A DNA stretch of 26,662 nucleotides, from positions 1-26,662 of IMG/VR virus record IMGVR_UViG_3300024339_000070; one strand, 5' to 3'. The number at the start of each line of letters is the position of its first letter. The first letter of the stretch is position 1. Of this stretch, positions 10,775 through 26,347 are shown piece by piece. The position numbers and the translations under genes were made by a program. Origin of the DNA: a virus. A model generated the notes under the pieces. That model did not search any database, was not told the origin of the DNA, and saw nothing but the letters and a program-made list of their open reading frames with translations.

Positions 10775-10869
10775 CTTGTTAACTCCTTGAAATTTAAAAG
10801 AGCGTCCATTCTAGAGCTTCTTAACTTCTTTGTCACCTCTTTTCTCTTACGCTCTTCTTACCCTCCAAA

Positions 10870-10889
10870 GTTCTTCTTTGCTCAAGAAG
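10870..10889. repeat. Left copy of a 20-base inverted repeat
   Basis: GTTCTTCTTTGCTCAAGAAG, exactly reverse-complemented at 11147-11166, 257 bases apart. The pair flanks the first four iterons and the AT-rich stretch. Confidence 0.75.
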
Positions 10890-11146
10890 GTCGAGCCAAC
10901 CGCAAAACCGTGAAATCTCTATAAACCTTAATATAATTTTAGTTCAAATTTTCCTCCTCTCTAAATTATTAAAAAGGTTTAATAGGTGTTTGCGGTTGAC
11001 TTTGCGGTTGGCACACCGCTCACCATTGGTAGATATAACCGCTTCTTAAAACTGTGTGCGCCTCTTCTTGACTATGCGGTTGATTACACAAAAAATTTCT
11101 CGATAACCCTTAGATATATAGTAGGACGCAGATTGTGTAAAGTTTT

Positions 11147-11166
11147 CTTCTTGAGCAAAGAAGAAC
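11147..11166. repeat. Right copy of a 20-base inverted repeat
   Basis: CTTCTTGAGCAAAGAAGAAC, the reverse complement of 10870-10889. Confidence 0.75.
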
Positions 11167-11350
11167 AAAATCACTTCTTTTGCATCTAACTTAATGTTCT
11201 ATATAGCACCACTGACACTTTCGAGTCATACAAGAAGGTTGTGTAACATACAACTTTGTTTGTTCCTAAGTACTAGTTAACAGGTTCAAGAAGGACGAAA
11301 ACTTTACATAAAAAATCGAGTTTTGCGGTTGGTTACACAATCTTGCGAGT

Positions 11351-11385
11351 ATGCGGTTGGCAAGAAGCCTTCTTGAATCAAGAAG
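11351..11385. repeat. 35-base direct repeat, copy 1
   Basis: Contains the iteron ATGCGGTTGGC followed by CAAGAAG, CTTCTTG and CAAGAAG; identical to 11466-11500, with a period of 115 bases. The repeat can fold as CTTCTTG AAT CAAGAAG. Confidence 0.8.
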
Positions 11386-11465
11386 CTTATATACCCACTT
11401 CTTGAAAAGGTTATATAATTTTGTCGAACGGACAAAGAAGCAACCAACCGCATAATTGTAAAATC

Positions 11466-11500
11466 ATGCGGTTGGCAAGAAGCCTTCTTGAATCAAGAAG
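11466..11500. repeat. 35-base direct repeat, copy 2
   Basis: Identical to 11351-11385. It ends 4 bases from the stop codon of the primase-helicase gene, so it follows directly on coding sequence. Confidence 0.8.
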
Positions 11501-11504
11501 AACT

Positions 11505-14308: not shown

Positions 14309-14860
14309 ATGAAATTTGGACTACTAGTTACTGTAGATAACACTGAAGAACTGACCAAGGCGATCCGCTTGCTCAACAAAGAAGGCTTAGAAACTGCCAC
14401 AACAGAGGTGGAAGAGACTAAAGCAGACGAACTATACAACCCAACCGCTACAGAGTTGCGCAACATGCTGATCGAGGTTAAAGAGCTCAAAGGTGGTGAA
14501 ACTGCTAAAGAGATTTTAGCCGCTCACGGTGCAAAAACACTCAAAGCACTAGATAAAGAAGAGTATGCAACAGTCTACGCCACTGCTAAGAACATACTGG
14601 ACGAACCAGAAGACGAACCAGAGGATGATGAGCTTGAAGATGAACTTGAAGATGAGTTTGAAGATGATGAGCTTGAAGATGATGAGGATATGGATGTACC
14701 TGAACCAGAAGTAGTAAAAGTTATGGTGCAAAAGTACGCTAAGCGTAATGGTAAAGAGAATACACTTGATATTCTCAAAAAGCATGGTTTGAACACTGTG
14801 AGAGGGTTGAAAGCCGCCTCTGATGAAGCACTTTTAGGCATCTTCAAAGCTATAAGTTAA
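14309..14860 (+). CDS. Acidic phage protein with duplicated helical domain
   Basis: A 183-residue protein, first of the rightward operon, behind two strong promoters and before a strong terminator, so probably an abundant early product. Residues 50-95 (ETAKEILAAHGAKTLKALDK) and 137-183 (NTLDILKKHGLNTVRGLKAA) look like two copies of one helical module of the sort seen in various phage DNA-metabolism proteins. They are joined by a highly acidic linker (about 100-132; many Asp/Glu in repeats). The N-terminus (MKFGLLVTVDNTEELTKAIR) may form a small alpha/beta unit. Function unknown; DNA mimicry or a recombination/SSB partner is possible. Ribosome site GAGG, 9 bases upstream. Confidence 0.75.
   Translation: MKFGLLVTVDNTEELTKAIRLLNKEGLETATTEVEETKADELYNPTATELRNMLIEVKELKGGETAKEILAAHGAKTLKALDKEEYATVYATAKNILDEPEDEPEDDELEDELEDEFEDDELEDDEDMDVPEPEVVKVMVQKYAKRNGKENTLDILKKHGLNTVRGLKAASDEALLGIFKAIS
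14620..14690 (+). repeat. Low-complexity repeats coding for the acidic linker
   Basis: Imperfect tandem copies of a 9-to-12-base GATGATGAGCTTGAA-like unit code for Glu/Asp/Leu runs. Such units can expand or contract by slippage. Confidence 0.6.
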
Positions 14861-17735: not shown

Positions 17736-19791
17736 CCAAGCCACCACTCAACTGTGGCACAACTTACAAGAATCTAAGCGCAGACTGGCAACTCCAAGAG
17801 CTATGATAGACTTTGAGACCAGATGTGATATTGATATCAAAAAATCAGGTGCGTTTGTTTACAGTAATCACGAATCTTGTGAGGTATTGATGATGTCATA
17901 TTGTTTGACCAACGAGCCACAAGATACTAAGTTATGGACGTTTGACCAACCTCCACCGCAAGAACTGTTAGACTTTGTAGCACGAGGCAACCAATTGAAC
18001 GCCTTTAATTCTTACTTTGAGTTCTGCATATGGCAAAATGTGTGTGTTCCTAAACTTAATTGGGTAGAACTCACAGGTATGCAACAAATACTGGACGTAG
18101 GCGATAAGTGTAAAGCACTTGCACTGCCTAGCAATCTAGAAGATGCTGCACAATCTATGGATATTGCAAACCTCAAAGATACAAGAGGTAAAGCACTCAT
18201 ACGCAAATTCTGCCAGCCAAAGAGGAATGGAGAGTATAACAACCCTTTGAGCCTCTCCAACAGTGTAGATTGGGAAACTTTCAAAACCTACTGTATCCGA
18301 GATACTAAAGCGCAGTTAGAGCTTGACAACATACTGCCAGACCTCTCACCTAAAGAACAATTAGTAGCGTGGTTCACTGATGAACTCAACTGGAGAGGGT
18401 TGCATGTGGATACATATGCAGCACAAGCCGCTTTAGAACTCTCTGATAAGATAAAAGTTAAATACAATGCAGAAGCTAGTAAATTGTCTGGAAGGTTGTT
18501 TGAAAAATGTACTCAAAGAGCAAAAGTGAAACAATGGTTGAGGGGTAAGGGTGTAGTAATGCCTGATATGCAAGCACCAACTATAGCCAAGTGGTTGCGC
18601 AAGGATAATCTACCTTCTACAGTGCGTAGAATGTTAGAACTGTATCAAATAACAGGCTCAACCTCTGTAGCCAAATACAAGGCTATGCTCTTGATGACTG
18701 ACCCTAAAACTAGAAGAGTGCATGAATTGTTGAACTATCATAAAGCCCGTACAGGTAGATGGGGTGGTAAAGGGATACAGATACAGAACTTCCCTCGACC
18801 AACACTCCCTAAAAGTACAAACTATGGAGATGTCCTGACCCTTATTAAGCGTGGCAAGGTGAGTGCAATTGAGAAGTTTGCTAAACAAGCTAAAGTTACC
18901 CCTATGGTTGTTCTGGTAAGTGCTTTGCGCTCTTGTATAACCCCAGTATGGGAGAATGAGTTTAAATCTGCGGATTATTCTGCCATTGAGGCAAGAGTGT
19001 TATTATGGGTGGCACAAGACCAACGAGCTCTAGATATCTTTAGGCGTGGTGAAGACTTGTATCTTGATATGGCAAGTGGCATATATAATATCCCAGTAGA
19101 AAAACTTAGCAAGGATTCTCCAGAACGGTTTATGGGTAAAACTGCCATACTAGGTTGTGGCTACGGTGTAGGAGGTGCAGCTTTCGCTAAACAAGTTGAG
19201 GATATGTCAAGGGTGAAGTTATCACTTGTAGAGGCTAAATCAACTGTGACTAAATATAGACAACGCTTCCCTAAAGTTGTCCAACTATGGAGAGATATGG
19301 AAAAACTTGCAGTGCATTGTGTGAGAACTGGCAGAGCCACCAGCCACGACACTGGAGTAACCTTTTACATGGATAGATTTGGCAGTAAGTCATTTTTAAT
19401 GTGTAAACTTCCATCAGGGCATACTTTAGGGTATCCTAATCCCAAGCTTAGGACTGCTGACACTAGTTGGAGTGATAAAAAATCAGAATTAACCTATGAA
19501 GGGCTGGATTCATATACTCATAAATGGACGAACCTTAAAACTTATGGTGGAAAGCTTGTAGAGAATATTGTACAAGCTATTGCCAGAGACTTGTTAGTAT
19601 ATGGTATGCTCTTACTAGATGCTGTGGGTTACAATATCATTATGAGCGTACACGATGAAGTGGTGTCCGAGGATGATGAAGAGTTTGGCAGTTTAGAAGA
19701 GCTTGAAGCTCTACTATGCCACCTTCCTAAATGGGCTGTGGATATGCCTGTAGCTTCTGAAGGGTGGGTAGGTGATAGGTATAGAAAATAA
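17713..19791 (+). CDS. DNA polymerase I, family A, with 3'-5' exonuclease
   Basis: A 692-residue polymerase. Exonuclease motifs: MIDFETRCD (D33, E35), AFNSYFEF and YCIRDTKAQL. Polymerase motifs: HKARTGRWGG and IQNFPRP, motif A SADYSAIEARVL (around residue 420), motif B RFMGKTAILGCGYGVG (around 470), and motif C SVHDEVV (around 647). It replicates the phage DNA. It has no 5'-nuclease domain. The start has AGGA 7 bases upstream and overlaps the small gene before. Length and motifs are complete, so it is likely active. Confidence 0.95.
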   Translation: MKYTAKINQATTQLWHNLQESKRRLATPRAMIDFETRCDIDIKKSGAFVYSNHESCEVLMMSYCLTNEPQDTKLWTFDQPPPQELLDFVARGNQLNAFNSYFEFCIWQNVCVPKLNWVELTGMQQILDVGDKCKALALPSNLEDAAQSMDIANLKDTRGKALIRKFCQPKRNGEYNNPLSLSNSVDWETFKTYCIRDTKAQLELDNILPDLSPKEQLVAWFTDELNWRGLHVDTYAAQAALELSDKIKVKYNAEASKLSGRLFEKCTQRAKVKQWLRGKGVVMPDMQAPTIAKWLRKDNLPSTVRRMLELYQITGSTSVAKYKAMLLMTDPKTRRVHELLNYHKARTGRWGGKGIQIQNFPRPTLPKSTNYGDVLTLIKRGKVSAIEKFAKQAKVTPMVVLVSALRSCITPVWENEFKSADYSAIEARVLLWVAQDQRALDIFRRGEDLYLDMASGIYNIPVEKLSKDSPERFMGKTAILGCGYGVGGAAFAKQVEDMSRVKLSLVEAKSTVTKYRQRFPKVVQLWRDMEKLAVHCVRTGRATSHDTGVTFYMDRFGSKSFLMCKLPSGHTLGYPNPKLRTADTSWSDKKSELTYEGLDSYTHKWTNLKTYGGKLVENIVQAIARDLLVYGMLLLDAVGYNIIMSVHDEVVSEDDEEFGSLEELEALLCHLPKWAVDMPVASEGWVGDRYRK

Positions 19792-19813
19792 CATGAAATT
19801 AAAGGAATATAAA

Positions 19814-20410
19814 ATGCATATAAAAATAGATAAACCAATAGTCAGCGCAGAAGTAATAACGCCAGAACAAGAGGTGGTAGATACTGTGGCAAAAAGACCA
19901 GAAAAATTGACAGGCACTACATACAAAGTAAAAGATGAAGGGCGTAATATATCTGTCTATATTACAATTAACGATAAAGGCGGCAAGCCGTTCGAGTTGT
20001 TTCTAAACTCCTCACATACAGAGAGCCACGAGTATGTTACAGTAATCACACGGCTAGTATCTGCCATGTTGAGAGAGGGCATGTGCCCTGAATTTATTGC
20101 TAAAGAGTTCAAACAAATATGGGGCGCAAATGGTTACTTTGCAGGTGGTAAGTTCCGCTCCTCATTAATCAGTCATATTGGAGACGTAATATTAGACCAT
20201 GTCAAGCAGAAAACCAAACCAGAAAAGAAGAGTGAAACACAGGAAAACAAGAGCCAAGAAGTTCAAGGAGAAGAAGGTAAAAAGGGGGCAGACTTAGACA
20301 TTAATACAGGGGTTACTTGCCCAGAATGTAAACAACCAACTCTCAAAAAGGAAGGTGGTTGTACTAAATGCCTCAATGATGAATGTGGCTATCTAGGAGA
20401 GTGCGGTTGA
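19814..20410 (+). CDS. Stand-alone NrdJ-type TSCPD/zinc-ribbon protein
   Basis: A 198-residue protein that resembles the C-terminal part of B12-dependent ribonucleotide reductases (NrdJ): the KRPEKLTGTTYKVKDE entry, ISVYITINDKGGKPFELFLN, a helical part (YVTVITRLVSAMLREGM), and a zinc-like CPECKQ...CTKCLNDECGY ending. No catalytic reductase subunit is seen in the window. Phages often carry TSCPD proteins near DNA polymerase; the role is unclear, perhaps regulating or replacing the host reductase C-terminus. I chose ATG 19814 with AAAGGA 7 bases upstream rather than earlier in-frame codons that overlap the polymerase. Confidence 0.72.
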   Translation: MHIKIDKPIVSAEVITPEQEVVDTVAKRPEKLTGTTYKVKDEGRNISVYITINDKGGKPFELFLNSSHTESHEYVTVITRLVSAMLREGMCPEFIAKEFKQIWGANGYFAGGKFRSSLISHIGDVILDHVKQKTKPEKKSETQENKSQEVQGEEGKKGADLDINTGVTCPECKQPTLKKEGGCTKCLNDECGYLGECG

Positions 20411-22658: not shown

Positions 22659-22872
22659 TCAGTTCTTTAACTGTGTACTTAGAGGCGTGAAGACTAAAGT
22701 AAAGTTTTCACGCCTTTCTAAGTTTATACCTCTTTATGGTATTTCAGTCGAGACTCCTAAAGGACAAGCCGCCACCACAGCAAATTATGATAGAAAATGG
22801 TTAGCCGCAGCACAGTTGGTAGGCACTATTTATAACCAAAATACAAAGGATACAGCGAATGTCAAATTTTAA
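22651..22872 (+). CDS. Small hypothetical protein, 73 aa
   Basis: I do not recognise this protein. It contains LRGVKTKVKFSRLSKF then a beta-like segment (FIPLYGISVETPKGQAAT). It overlaps the previous gene by 8 bases and the next by 14, without a clear ribosome site, so translation is probably coupled. The overlap on both sides with real genes supports it as a true gene, but weakly. Confidence 0.55.
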   Translation: MSDQFFNCVLRGVKTKVKFSRLSKFIPLYGISVETPKGQAATTANYDRKWLAAAQLVGTIYNQNTKDTANVKF

Positions 22873-23827
22873 TAAAGTTAAACAATTTCACGATAAGTTT
22901 GGGTTACCATATGAGGATATACCTCGAAAGTTGCCAGAGGAAGAGCAAAGATTTAGAATCCTTTGTCTGCGTGAAGAGTTGGAAGAGTATGAAACAGCAG
23001 TAGCAAGTGAAGATTTAGAAGAGCAATTTGATGCGCTCATAGACCTAGTCTACTTTGCATTAGGCACTGCGCACCGCAACGGTTTTGAATGGGATAAAGG
23101 TTTTGAGAGAGTACATAAAGCTAATATGTTGAAAACGGTTGACTCGTTCAGACAAAGGAGAGGCTTCGAGCTGGAAGTTACTAAACCAATCGACTGGAAG
23201 CCTCCAGTGTTGAGTGATTTGATAGCGGTTGATACTTGCAGCAAACTAAAACCTAATCAATTTACAGGAAAGTATACAGGGTTGATAACACTTGACGGAG
23301 TTGACGCATCAGGTAAAACCACTCTCGCTAAGCGCATTATTGAGTTGACTGGCGGAGAATATATCCATCTGACGTGGTCACCAGAACTTGAAAAGGTTAT
23401 GCATAACTATCGCACTTCTGCCATACATTATGCTGCAACACTAGCCACCCATACAGTTGTAGTGTTAGAACGTCCTTGGTTATCACATCCCATATACTCT
23501 GAAGTTTACAGAGATGGCAAGATGGAAGATTATACAAGTTGGAGAACGATATGCCAACTTGCGGAAGATGTAGCTATACTGTCAGTGCCTGAAGACATGG
23601 AGCAATGGTATGACAACTATTTGGAGATGGTAGACACCAGAGAAGAATTATTTGCAGAAGAGGAAAATGAACTTATGATTAAAGTATTTCATGAGTTTGA
23701 TAATGTAGGGGCACACGGTGAAGTAACAGATAAGACTATCTATTATGACATGTTTGAGGTAGAAAATAATAGGGAGTTGGATCAATGGATCTTGACTGAA
23801 ATTTTACCAAAATTAAAGGAAAAGTAA
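22859..23827 (+). CDS. MazG-like pyrophosphohydrolase fused to thymidylate-kinase-like domain
   Basis: A 322-residue fusion. Residues 1-100 look like an all-alpha MazG/HisE-type nucleotide pyrophosphohydrolase: LREELEEYETAVASEDLEEQ with acidic metal ligands, then DALIDLVYFALGTAHRNG. The rest resembles dTMP kinase: Walker A GVDASGKTTLAKR (about 147-158), a VVVLERPWLSHPIYSEVYR segment like the ERW...YQ of that family, and a C-terminal helix. Together it could hydrolyse canonical dNTPs and phosphorylate a (possibly unusual) dNMP. The LID-like region is modified, so substrate is uncertain. Ribosome site AAGGA, 8 bases before ATG. Confidence 0.75.
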   Translation: MSNFNKVKQFHDKFGLPYEDIPRKLPEEEQRFRILCLREELEEYETAVASEDLEEQFDALIDLVYFALGTAHRNGFEWDKGFERVHKANMLKTVDSFRQRRGFELEVTKPIDWKPPVLSDLIAVDTCSKLKPNQFTGKYTGLITLDGVDASGKTTLAKRIIELTGGEYIHLTWSPELEKVMHNYRTSAIHYAATLATHTVVVLERPWLSHPIYSEVYRDGKMEDYTSWRTICQLAEDVAILSVPEDMEQWYDNYLEMVDTREELFAEEENELMIKVFHEFDNVGAHGEVTDKTIYYDMFEVENNRELDQWILTEILPKLKEK

Positions 23828-24780
23828 TGGAACATACATATTTAAGAAAAGATACAGGGTTTAGCGTGCAATTTGCTACAACAGACCACAAACCTTCAAT
23901 ATATAGTTTATTGGAAGGTGTTTGGAGTTTTGCAGCAATATTGAAAGGTATAAAGGATAAGATATGGGAGCGTGTGTATCCTGTAGGTGAACTCCCTCCA
24001 GTTGTACAGCTTTGGTATGATATAGGACTGCTGGAATTAGTACCAAGTTCAACAGATGAATCGTTAGTGGCAACGCTTTCTAGTAAAGGTGACGCAGTTT
24101 TTATGATGGAAGACTTGTTAGAATATGAGTTCTCTATGGTCAACCAACAACTTGATACAGATTATCAAACTGATCCAGAGAAGTACAAAAAGTTACGCAA
24201 GGCACTAGGAGACTATTCGCATGTATACTTGAAAGAGTTACATATATGGCTATCAGATAGTATACCTAGAGGTTCACATATTTTAGATTTTGGAGGGGGT
24301 GAAGGGAAGTATCTGCAGTCAGTGCTAAACGCCCATTTTGGTAAAGGTACTACAGGGGTGTTACTCGACAAAGCCCCTAGTTATGCAATAAAGGACAGCA
24401 GGGTTGCACCTTTTGTAAATGTGAAACAATATAATTTCACAGATAATTCTTTTATAGAAGAGTGTAAAGGACGGTTCAAAGCTATAATAATCAGTGAAGT
24501 TCTCCATGTTATGTCACCAGATAGAAGAGTTGAGACGTACAACCAACTATGGGATTTACTAGCACCTGACGGCTTACTATTCATATTAGAACAACATACT
24601 AATCTACGCCTTGACTGGAGAATGTATGATATGACAGAGGGTGGCAGTTGCATCTCTTTACAAGATATGATAGAAGAGGTTCATAGTGTTTTACCAACAG
24701 CGCAACTCCCACTTAAAGAATATATAGAGTTACCTACCCATTATGGGGTAATGTTTGAAAAGAAGGGAGAGAACCAATGA
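23827..24780 (+). CDS. SAM-dependent class I methyltransferase
   Basis: A 317-residue methyltransferase. The Rossmann part starts at about residue 150: motif I HILDFGGGEGKYL, an acidic loop VLLDKAPSY (motif II), and the SEVLHVMSPDRR region followed by LLAPDGLLFILEQ. The N-terminal 140 residues look like a winged-helix/dimerisation module as in small-molecule O-methyltransferases. The substrate is unknown. It starts in TAATG overlap with the kinase fusion gene and overlaps the deaminase-like gene by 4 bases, so it is one operon with the nucleotide-handling genes. Confidence 0.78.
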   Translation: MEHTYLRKDTGFSVQFATTDHKPSIYSLLEGVWSFAAILKGIKDKIWERVYPVGELPPVVQLWYDIGLLELVPSSTDESLVATLSSKGDAVFMMEDLLEYEFSMVNQQLDTDYQTDPEKYKKLRKALGDYSHVYLKELHIWLSDSIPRGSHILDFGGGEGKYLQSVLNAHFGKGTTGVLLDKAPSYAIKDSRVAPFVNVKQYNFTDNSFIEECKGRFKAIIISEVLHVMSPDRRVETYNQLWDLLAPDGLLFILEQHTNLRLDWRMYDMTEGGSCISLQDMIEEVHSVLPTAQLPLKEYIELPTHYGVMFEKKGENQ

Positions 24781-25241
24781 CAACTTCAGCAGTAAAAACC
24801 GCAAAAGTTTGGTTGCGACTAACTTTAGCACGTGATTTGCAACACGAAAATCAATGCCCTCGTGCTACAGTAAAAGCCACTACATATAGTAATAGTGGTG
24901 TGTTGGTCGGTTTTGGGGTGAATACACTACACAAAAGCTTCAATGGTTGCTCTTGCAATGATGGTGTGGATACCAATAAAAAGGGAAGCACTACATGTAA
25001 ATCTGTACATGCCGAACTGGCAGCACTCATAGACACATGGAGTAAAGGAATACTGCAAGAGGAAGTGATTGCCATTGCGGTCACACGCCCACCATGTAGA
25101 ATATGTTGTGCTACTTTGCTTGAAACCTCAATACAGACGATTATTACTACAGACGAATTTGAAGACCGTGATGGCAGTAAAGAAGTATGGGAGAAAGCAG
25201 AAGGCACTTGGATAACACTTAATAAGGAAGAAGAATTATGA
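24777..25241 (+). CDS. Deoxycytidylate deaminase-like zinc enzyme
   Basis: A 154-residue member of the cytidine/dCMP deaminase superfamily. The active-site VHAELAAL (H78, E80) and PPCRICCATLL (C107, C110) form the catalytic zinc site. Extra cysteines (C58, C60, C74) may bind a second, structural zinc as in dCMP deaminases. The reaction would convert dCMP to dUMP or act on a related base or nucleotide. The start overlaps the methyltransferase stop (ATGA) with GGGAGAG upstream. It is somewhat short but has all key residues. Confidence 0.85.
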   Translation: MTTSAVKTAKVWLRLTLARDLQHENQCPRATVKATTYSNSGVLVGFGVNTLHKSFNGCSCNDGVDTNKKGSTTCKSVHAELAALIDTWSKGILQEEVIAIAVTRPPCRICCATLLETSIQTIITTDEFEDRDGSKEVWEKAEGTWITLNKEEEL

Positions 25242-26347
25242 TACACTTAAATTTAGGCTACAACTTTGATACTGAATTACCTGATAAACTTAATGCGCTA
25301 AACCAAAAGTATGGGGTTGAAGGGTACAAAATTAACAAAATTACAGGAGTATATGGTTCTGATAAGGCTCACGCTTGGCTATCTGCCAGACCTGATTTTA
25401 GATTGCCAGAAGTGAGCAAGTTTGAACTACGCACCCATGTACACCGCTTACTAGACAAAGATATAGAGTTCAACTATACTATCAATACATCATATCCTGG
25501 AAGTAAAGAAAGTTTTGCTCCTAGAGTTGGTGAGTTTGTTGATTGGATAGGAACACTTGCCAACATGGGAGTTAAACGCCTAATTGTGGCAAACCCTATG
25601 TTTATTGACATACTTAGCAAGAAAGCCCCAGAGATAGATATAGCTATAGAACTCTCCACTATCATGCATATTGACACCCCTATGCAGATGCAAGCGTTTA
25701 AACAGTTAGACAAGAGAGTGGATAAAGTGGTGAGCAACCTACTCTATAACAGAGACTTCTCAAAATTGGCGACGCTTGCAGGATACGCTAAAGACTTGAG
25801 TTTAGGCTATGAAGTTATGGTGAATGAGTTTTGCGCCACTGGATCTTACAACAATGATGTACCAGTTGGCACTCACTGCATATTTAGAGATAGTTGCTAC
25901 AATTGCCACGCAGAAAATGAAACAGTTGAACACGCTAAGCTGCTCAATAACTACCCAATGGGTGATTGTATGTCAAGCCGTGCGCATGATATAGCAGATT
26001 GGTTGCGCTCTCCTTTCATCAGACCAGAGGATACCCACTTTTATGAAAATATTGGCATACAACATTTCAAAGTGACGGGCAGAACCGCAAAAACTCCATA
26101 TATCTTGCATATTGCTGAAGCGTATTTGAGTGGTAAGTTTGATGGCAATATGCTACAACTGTGGAAACCTTTAGAAACTATATATTCAGATAAAGACGAG
26201 TTGAGCGGTCACAAACATAAACACAACATACCTAATGCTCAATTAGAAGGGTTCATCTCACCATTTGTGAAAGGTGAAATAAATTGCAATAATACTACCT
26301 GTGAAGAATGTTTTTGGTGCGATGAAGTTGCTAGTGGATTAGAGTAA
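25238..26347 (+). CDS. U32-family protein (peptidase U32-like; possible oxygen-independent hydroxylase)
   Basis: A 369-residue U32-family protein. The late core PFIRPEDTHFYENIGIQHFK, followed by a run to AYLSGKFDGNML, and the NLLYNRDFSKL and NEFCATG segments match this family. Relatives TrhP, RlhA and UbiU/V use an iron-sulfur cluster to hydroxylate nucleobases or ubiquinone precursors without oxygen; others are called peptidases. Cysteines include about 214, 220, 223 and 244, and a tail cluster C-X4-C-X2-C-X2-C at 350/355/358/361, possibly a second cluster. Substrate is unknown. It overlaps the deaminase gene (ATGA), so cotranscription is likely. Confidence 0.78.
   Translation: MIHLNLGYNFDTELPDKLNALNQKYGVEGYKINKITGVYGSDKAHAWLSARPDFRLPEVSKFELRTHVHRLLDKDIEFNYTINTSYPGSKESFAPRVGEFVDWIGTLANMGVKRLIVANPMFIDILSKKAPEIDIAIELSTIMHIDTPMQMQAFKQLDKRVDKVVSNLLYNRDFSKLATLAGYAKDLSLGYEVMVNEFCATGSYNNDVPVGTHCIFRDSCYNCHAENETVEHAKLLNNYPMGDCMSSRAHDIADWLRSPFIRPEDTHFYENIGIQHFKVTGRTAKTPYILHIAEAYLSGKFDGNMLQLWKPLETIYSDKDELSGHKHKHNIPNAQLEGFISPFVKGEINCNNTTCEECFWCDEVASGLE

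Follow-up and report, generated by a model that had tools for sequence, protein, structure and literature searches.

Phage DNA based on C5-hydroxycytosine is already known. The DNA of RB69 and Thanatos carries a pentose on 5-hydroxycytosine (PMC13390438, PMC12838424), and in Thanatos an O-link joins a deoxypentose straight to C5 (fragment m/z 128.045), through a hydroxyl for which the authors had no valid hypothesis (PMC12838424). In Mosigvirus, the RB69 type, the published hydroxylating enzyme is a homologue of thymidylate synthase (TS), the 5-hydroxy-dCMP (5-hodCMP) synthase (PMC13390438), and a U32-family gene of RB69 had earlier been listed, as a 'peptidase' homologue, among the genes presumably involved (PMC8056088). 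The cellular U32 enzymes TrhP and RlhA require prephenate, and a set of Glu, Cys and Cys residues is essential to them (PMC6599085). Here we analyse a 26,662-base IMG/VR fragment (IMGVR_UViG_3300024339_000070; hereafter the window), an incomplete genome in which a U32-family gene closes a run of four overlapping genes. We give an even chance to the reading that these four genes form a pre-replicative pathway for modifying cytosine in DNA, by U32-dependent C5-hydroxylation, an O-methyl cap and incorporation. A narrower version, in which the U32 protein works without a TS, on prephenate and without oxygen, to hydroxylate a deoxycytidine nucleotide that then receives a methyl cap, with 5-methoxycytosine replacing cytosine, is put forward tentatively and with considerable doubt.

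The four open reading frames (ORFs) lie open on the plus strand at 22859-23827, 23827-24780, 24777-25241 and 25238-26347, with successive overlaps of 1, 4 and 4 bases and a purine-rich stretch upstream of each. Their products are, in order, a MazG-like pyrophosphohydrolase::thymidylate-kinase-like fusion, an S-adenosylmethionine (SAM)-dependent methyltransferase, a dCMP-deaminase-like zinc enzyme and the U32-family protein, so that the initial annotation was right about both the tight coupling and the domains. The reading draws on what is seen directly in gene identities, gene order, U32 residues, the O-methyltransferase fold and the association of U32 with chorismate mutase and hydroxycytosine phages; from these we infer the substrates, the order of the steps and the identity of the final base. 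MazG would convert dCTP to dCMP, both removing the normal nucleotide and supplying the substrate; the U32 protein, the proposed prephenate-dependent C5-hydroxylase, would hydroxylate dCMP at C5; and the methyltransferase, as the proposed 5-hydroxy-dCMP O-methyltransferase, would methylate the new hydroxyl to give 5-methoxy-dCMP. The kinase-like domain would phosphorylate the modified dCMP toward the triphosphate, the phage polymerase would then build it into DNA where dC normally goes, with the deaminase draining leftover dCMP to dUMP. The predicted final base, 5-methoxycytosine, is unproven.

The U32 protein (25238-26347, +) was assigned from Pfam and PHROG profiles, phage relatives, conserved residues and a structural model. 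Peptidase_U32 (PF01136) matches residues 100-158 only (4.2e-7, 29.9 bits against a curated cut-off of 22.4), and phrog_5757 matches the full length (5e-84). Glu192, Cys214 and Cys220 align with Glu162, Cys170 and Cys177 of TrhP and are invariant in 13 phage sequences, the two essential cysteines being spaced by five residues in the window and by six in TrhP; Cys199 and Cys244 are likewise invariant, and the C-terminal Cys350, Cys355, Cys358 and Cys361 nearly so. Conserved cysteines are what the sequence offers toward the [4Fe-4S] cluster predicted for a U32 hydroxylase, and neighbouring chorismate mutase genes speak indirectly for a prephenate-dependent reaction. A sequence search of solved structures returned no match for the protein. 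The best match of its model in the PDB is 5d88, the U32 peptidase Mk0906 (Z 16.8, root mean square deviation 3.2 over 226 residues), with the next fold at Z 12.8; the Foldseek ranking by itself gave general TIM-barrels only, and it was via re-comparison that the U32 structure ranked first.

In GenBank, the phage U32 family was found in 218 phage records, including RB69 and Thanatos. The gene sits amid arabinose, TS and kinase genes in HX01, RB69 and LC53, and is present in both Thanatos-1 and Thanatos-2. A chorismate mutase gene adjoins it in LC53, Entb_45, Thanatos, PSTCR6 and many more; phage records with this enzyme number just 51 among 50,697 and come from genera also found among U32 carriers, and among the matches listed, records with both genes always have them within ~350 bases of each other. 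Since chorismate mutase makes the prephenate needed by cellular U32 hydroxylases, the neighbour would supply the phage U32 protein. Carboxy-SAM synthesis by CmoA, the other known user of prephenate, was considered as the consumer and rejected, CmoA being absent from 10 U32/chorismate-mutase phages and relatives. The small gene that follows U32 in RB69 (RB69p049) was also tried as a chorismate mutase and gave no match by BLAST or Pfam. Placement of U32 relatives in 5-O-pentosyl-cytosine clusters beside chorismate mutase supports the idea, present in the initial annotation, of a nucleotide-level pathway to a C5-hydroxylated pyrimidine, with U32 as the probable rather than the demonstrated hydroxylase.

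Several further arrangements of U32 genes were recorded. In three metagenomic phages (G036-G038) chorismate mutase is fused to DAHP synthase, in the company of U32 and of genes for an arabinose-phosphate isomerase, a nucleotidyltransferase, a kinase and a HAD phosphatase. The fusion close to U32 and arabinose-pathway genes, as seen in metagenomic phages at L088:3406-9083 and L090:3705-9080, would be a phage-borne boost to the shikimate pathway. In one arabinose-pathway cluster (L084:6686-7948), the gene immediately upstream of the phage U32 gene is a TnpB-like transposon gene, recognised by eye. In three bacterial genomes (BRC1, Tannerella and Phocaeicola), a row of three genes encodes a guanylate-kinase-like::methyltransferase fusion, an HhH-GPD/AGOG-like protein (a weak match, below cut-off) and a phage-type U32 protein (L115:4810-8086, L116:4872-8080, L117:3990-7137); the HhH-GPD/AGOG-like middle protein also occurs elsewhere in the L114 genome. 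This cassette is possibly a modified-nucleotide or defence system and, in again combining kinase, methyltransferase and U32, offers an independent hint of the pathway.

Relatives of the window are four viral contigs in IMG/VR (G001-G004), in which the MazG::kinase, methyltransferase and deaminase genes are syntenic with the window at 34-51% identity; helicase and polymerase are also common to all (50-53% identity), and a single-stranded DNA-binding protein is found in three. This synteny argues that the four-gene arrangement is not a matter of chance. The refuting condition named in the initial annotation, a lack of conserved co-occurrence, was checked on these contigs: the first three genes occur together in 5/5 and U32 in 2/5. 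G001 carries a copy 58% identical over 214 sequenced residues, cut by the contig end, and none was found in G002-G004. In each of the four relatives a TS homologue separates the methyltransferase from the deaminase gene, so G001 carries both TS and U32. The earlier remark that the window contains no TS is correct for this fragment of an incomplete genome, in which methyltransferase and deaminase overlap by four bases at that very spot and U32 follows directly after the deaminase; a TS gene may lie elsewhere in the genome.

To place these homologues we built a tree of 23 TS-like proteins (residues numbered as in Escherichia coli ThyA). Those of G001-G004 cluster with the RB69/LC53/Thanatos type (support 97/96). 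All members of this hydroxy-type side have lost E58, D169 and G173, which serve the folate chemistry, and keep C146, R166 and S167, and on this side, G001-G004 included, Asp replaces N177, as in T4 dCMP hydroxymethylase. The folate residues are retained in T4 gp42, whose exact place in the tree is unsure because its branch is very long, and in the AXL3-type TS. From residues and tree position together, the lineage of the window is likely to be one of 5-hydroxy-dCMP rather than hydroxymethyl chemistry, with cytosine as the likely base. The same hydroxy-type residues recur in TS homologues of PAU (gp182, L106:3854-4561), PTm1 (L108:2977-3654) and Atu_ph04 (L107:3782-4525) and in two further sequences (L078:5995-6702, L079:6001-6699), the phages of which may also have hydroxycytosine-based DNA.

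The initial annotation had left the pyrimidine open, and the dCMP-type residue in the relatives points to cytosine rather than uracil. A uracil or thymine target would require deamination of dCMP to dUMP, TrhP-like hydroxylation and O-methylation to a 5-methoxy-dUMP replacing dT. The deaminase gene does immediately precede U32, uridine is the substrate of TrhP, and 5-methoxyuridine (mo5U) is made in Bacillus subtilis tRNA (PMC6599085). The Asp at the base-discriminating position of the relatives' TS homologues points the other way, known U32-carrying phages modify cytosine, and in Thanatos cytosine modification comes with dCMP deaminases and dCTPases; we regard the uracil route as rather improbable.

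The main uncertainty is which enzyme hydroxylates, U32 or the TS homologue. The C5 step could be performed by a 5-hydroxy-dCMP synthase of the TS superfamily whose gene lies beyond the fragment, with U32 and prephenate serving as a helper or as a second route, one that might for example need no oxygen, and with an O-methylated cytosine still the product. Several observations weigh against U32 as hydroxylase, among them the published 5-hodCMP synthase of Mosigvirus, itself a TS homologue (PMC13390438), which keeps the U32 assignment at the level of a proposal. A TS of hydroxy type stands beside the methyltransferase in all four relatives, three of them without detected U32 and the fourth, the sister contig G001, with both, and hydroxy-type TS occurs without U32 in Dhakavirus and an Acinetobacter phage as well as in G002-G004, meaning that U32 is not always needed. 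RB69 has no recognisable chorismate mutase, and neither do the U32-carrying window and its one U32-carrying relative, which in these two would leave the host as the source of prephenate. In addition, sequence similarity of the phage U32 proteins to TrhP and RlhA is weak, the cysteine loop of the model is of low confidence, and the DNA chemistry of the methyltransferase-bearing members is a prediction from sequence. The window, however, lacks a TS at the conserved spot, methyltransferase and deaminase overlapping there directly, and G036-G038 combine U32 with prephenate-supply genes and have no TS in their 41-86 kb. We consider this synthase route unlikely, though the main competitor. The occurrence of TS without U32 (G002-G004, Dhakavirus, the Acinetobacter phage) and of U32 without TS (G036-G038, the window) suggests that the two may be alternative enzymes for one hydroxylation, used together or alone, much as TrhO and TrhP both serve a single tRNA hydroxylation in cells (PMC6599085).

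The second step of the preferred U32-based pathway falls to the methyltransferase (23827-24780, +), for which profiles and a model indicate an O-methyltransferase (HIOMT/COMT-like) fold with an N-terminal domain. Methyltransf_12 and Methyltransf_23 score above cut-off; PF00891 (Methyltransf_2) matches 4/5 homologues within an E-value limit of 0.01, the best of them at 1.4e-10, the window's own copy being below cut-off. Profile matches in the PDB include TnmH (2.6e-11) and CalO6, and over nearly its whole length the model resembles the two-domain O-methyltransferases MfnG (Z 21.9), ASMT (Z 20.2) and the caffeic-acid type (~20). His227 (24505) and Glu255 (24589), at catalytic-type positions, are kept in all five homologues. 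Homologues were found only in the four other IMG/VR contigs; bacterial genomes yielded none, nor did a tblastn search of GenBank phages. The characterised matches are mostly O-methyltransferases that act on small hydroxylated compounds, a class that fits 5-hydroxy-dCMP as substrate, and together with the fold this lends support to the O-methylation suggested in the initial annotation, as a predicted activity. Methyltransferases acting on carbon or nitrogen also have this fold, as does the hydroxylase RdmB, itself among the profile matches, and the protein could accordingly be an RdmB-like hydroxylase or an N- or C-methylating enzyme, with a final base other than 5-methoxycytosine. Given the preponderance of O-methyltransferases among the characterised matches and the conserved His and Glu, we think this very unlikely.

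The remaining genes fit the proposed O-methylation pathway as enzymes of nucleotide metabolism. In the fusion protein (22859-23827, +), the MazG part spans residues ~7-89 (Pfam PRA-PH 4.7e-17, phrog_671 7e-24), and the kinase part, from residue ~142, matches the thymidylate kinase family phrog_761 (5.1e-9), is below Pfam and TIGR cut-offs and has an intact P-loop (GVDASGKTT, around 23294); homologous fusions in the four related contigs are 38-51% identical. The deaminase (24777-25241, +) matches dCMP_cyt_deam_1 above cut-off (2.9e-7) and phrog_174 (3.8e-9), and has both the HAE (residue 78) and the PCxxC motif (PPCRIC, residue 105) by which a dCMP deaminase is recognised, its zinc motifs being intact. 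Its homologues occupy the equivalent position in the four related contigs; tblastn found no relatives in GenBank phages. This setting bears on the possibility that host tRNA or rRNA is the target, as for TrhP with TrmR or for RlhA, and that the nucleotide enzymes are unrelated neighbours, an alternative already raised in the initial annotation. Cellular U32 proteins do modify RNA (PMC6599085). The window's U32 gene is nevertheless coupled to those for dCMP deaminase, kinase and MazG, U32 genes of phages lie among DNA-modification genes, and a Pfam scan at E 0.1 detected the U32 core only (PF01136) and no TrhP-type C-terminal domain, a missing match that is no proof of absence. We therefore disfavour the RNA alternative, to which we assign a slight chance.

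What is new here is the evidence for the phage U32 family as the likely prephenate-dependent hydroxylase, together with a predicted variant in which a methyl rather than a sugar caps hydroxycytosine; the earlier description of the pathway as possibly new does not extend to hydroxycytosine phage DNA itself, already reported (PMC13390438, PMC12838424). The literature searched contained no paper linking 5-methoxycytosine with phage DNA. Reportedly, Lee et al. 2025 assigns the 5-hodCMP synthase and Mahler et al. 2025 treats arabinosyl-hydroxycytosine, and either may already assign U32. If correct, the pathway would provide phage DNA with a protective base not reported before, and would be a further case of phages turning RNA-modification enzymes to DNA; the narrower, TS-free version would in addition mean a new natural DNA base and the first U32 enzyme to work on a DNA precursor. 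The U32 proteins of phages, for which the usual annotation is peptidase, become a concrete and testable candidate for the C5-oxygen step left unexplained in Thanatos (PMC12838424), and U32 with chorismate mutase would connect the modified DNA of phages with the shikimate pathway. A methyl cap, small and chemically unlike the known sugar caps, would have consequences for restriction, CRISPR and the reading of DNA by nanopore.

Elsewhere in the window, head genes occupy the minus strand and replication genes the plus strand, and no tRNA or Rfam match was found. An intergenic region (10775-11504), also without Rfam match, holds two identical 35-base copies in direct orientation (11351, 11466) along with several inverted repeats; short tandem repeats at 14600-14696 encode an acidic run within ORF 14309-14860; and 19772-20410 encodes a stand-alone TSCPD-domain protein (Pfam 3.5e-12) that resembles the ribonucleotide reductase C-terminus without the catalytic part. 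The locus had no DNA-level match among phages, and an exact-match scan returned no overlapping contigs extending the window's genome.

Among known systems, the arabinosyl-5-hydroxycytosine pathway of RB69/Mosigvirus and LC53 shares the logic of U32, dCMP-type TS homologue, kinase, dCTPase and modification of cytosine before replication. The window differs in having an O-methyltransferase in place of the arabinose genes, MazG in place of a T4-type dCTPase and no TS seen; of the RB69-type set, this incomplete genome shows U32 only, with no TS, chorismate mutase, isomerase or nucleotidyltransferase homologue. Thanatos, with deoxypentosyl-cytosine DNA, resembles the proposed pathway in U32 (TH1_065), TS homologue, dCTPase, dCMP deaminase and an oxygen directly on C5, but is an unrelated phage type with a sugar cap where a methyl cap is predicted in the window. 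The module of the Axeltriavirus AXL3 has the same function set (methyltransferase, MazG, kinase, dCMP-type TS and deaminase), and AXL3 DNA is digested solely by enzymes whose sites consist of A/T, those with G/C in the site failing to cut (PMC7504290). It differs in that its methyltransferase is of another family, its TS retains the folate residues, with hydroxymethyl or methyl chemistry expected, and U32 was not detected; we rejected its methyltransferase as the same kind as the window's, the SAM-binding core alone aligning (23% identity). Modules of this type, with a folate-type dCMP TS, are well conserved (L007:8068-12102 in AXL3, L016:6856-10797, L019:7162-10599, L021:6357-9853). The T4 hydroxymethylcytosine system (gp42, gp1, gp56) likewise modifies dCMP before replication, with a kinase and dCTP removal, but by folate-dependent hydroxymethylation rather than hydroxylation and without a methyl cap. 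Phage CmoA/CmoX 5-carboxymethylcytosine (PMC12783734) is similar in re-using a prephenate-using RNA-modification enzyme for DNA, whereas CmoA/CmoX act post-replication through carboxy-SAM, and the window has no CmoA. Lastly, TrhP, RlhA, UbiU-UbiV and the B. subtilis yrrMNO genes (O-methyltransferase and U32, making mo5U tRNA) follow the same hydroxylate-then-O-methylate logic, from which prephenate dependence would carry over; while those enzymes act on RNA or quinone precursors, the substrate proposed in the window is a nucleotide destined for DNA.

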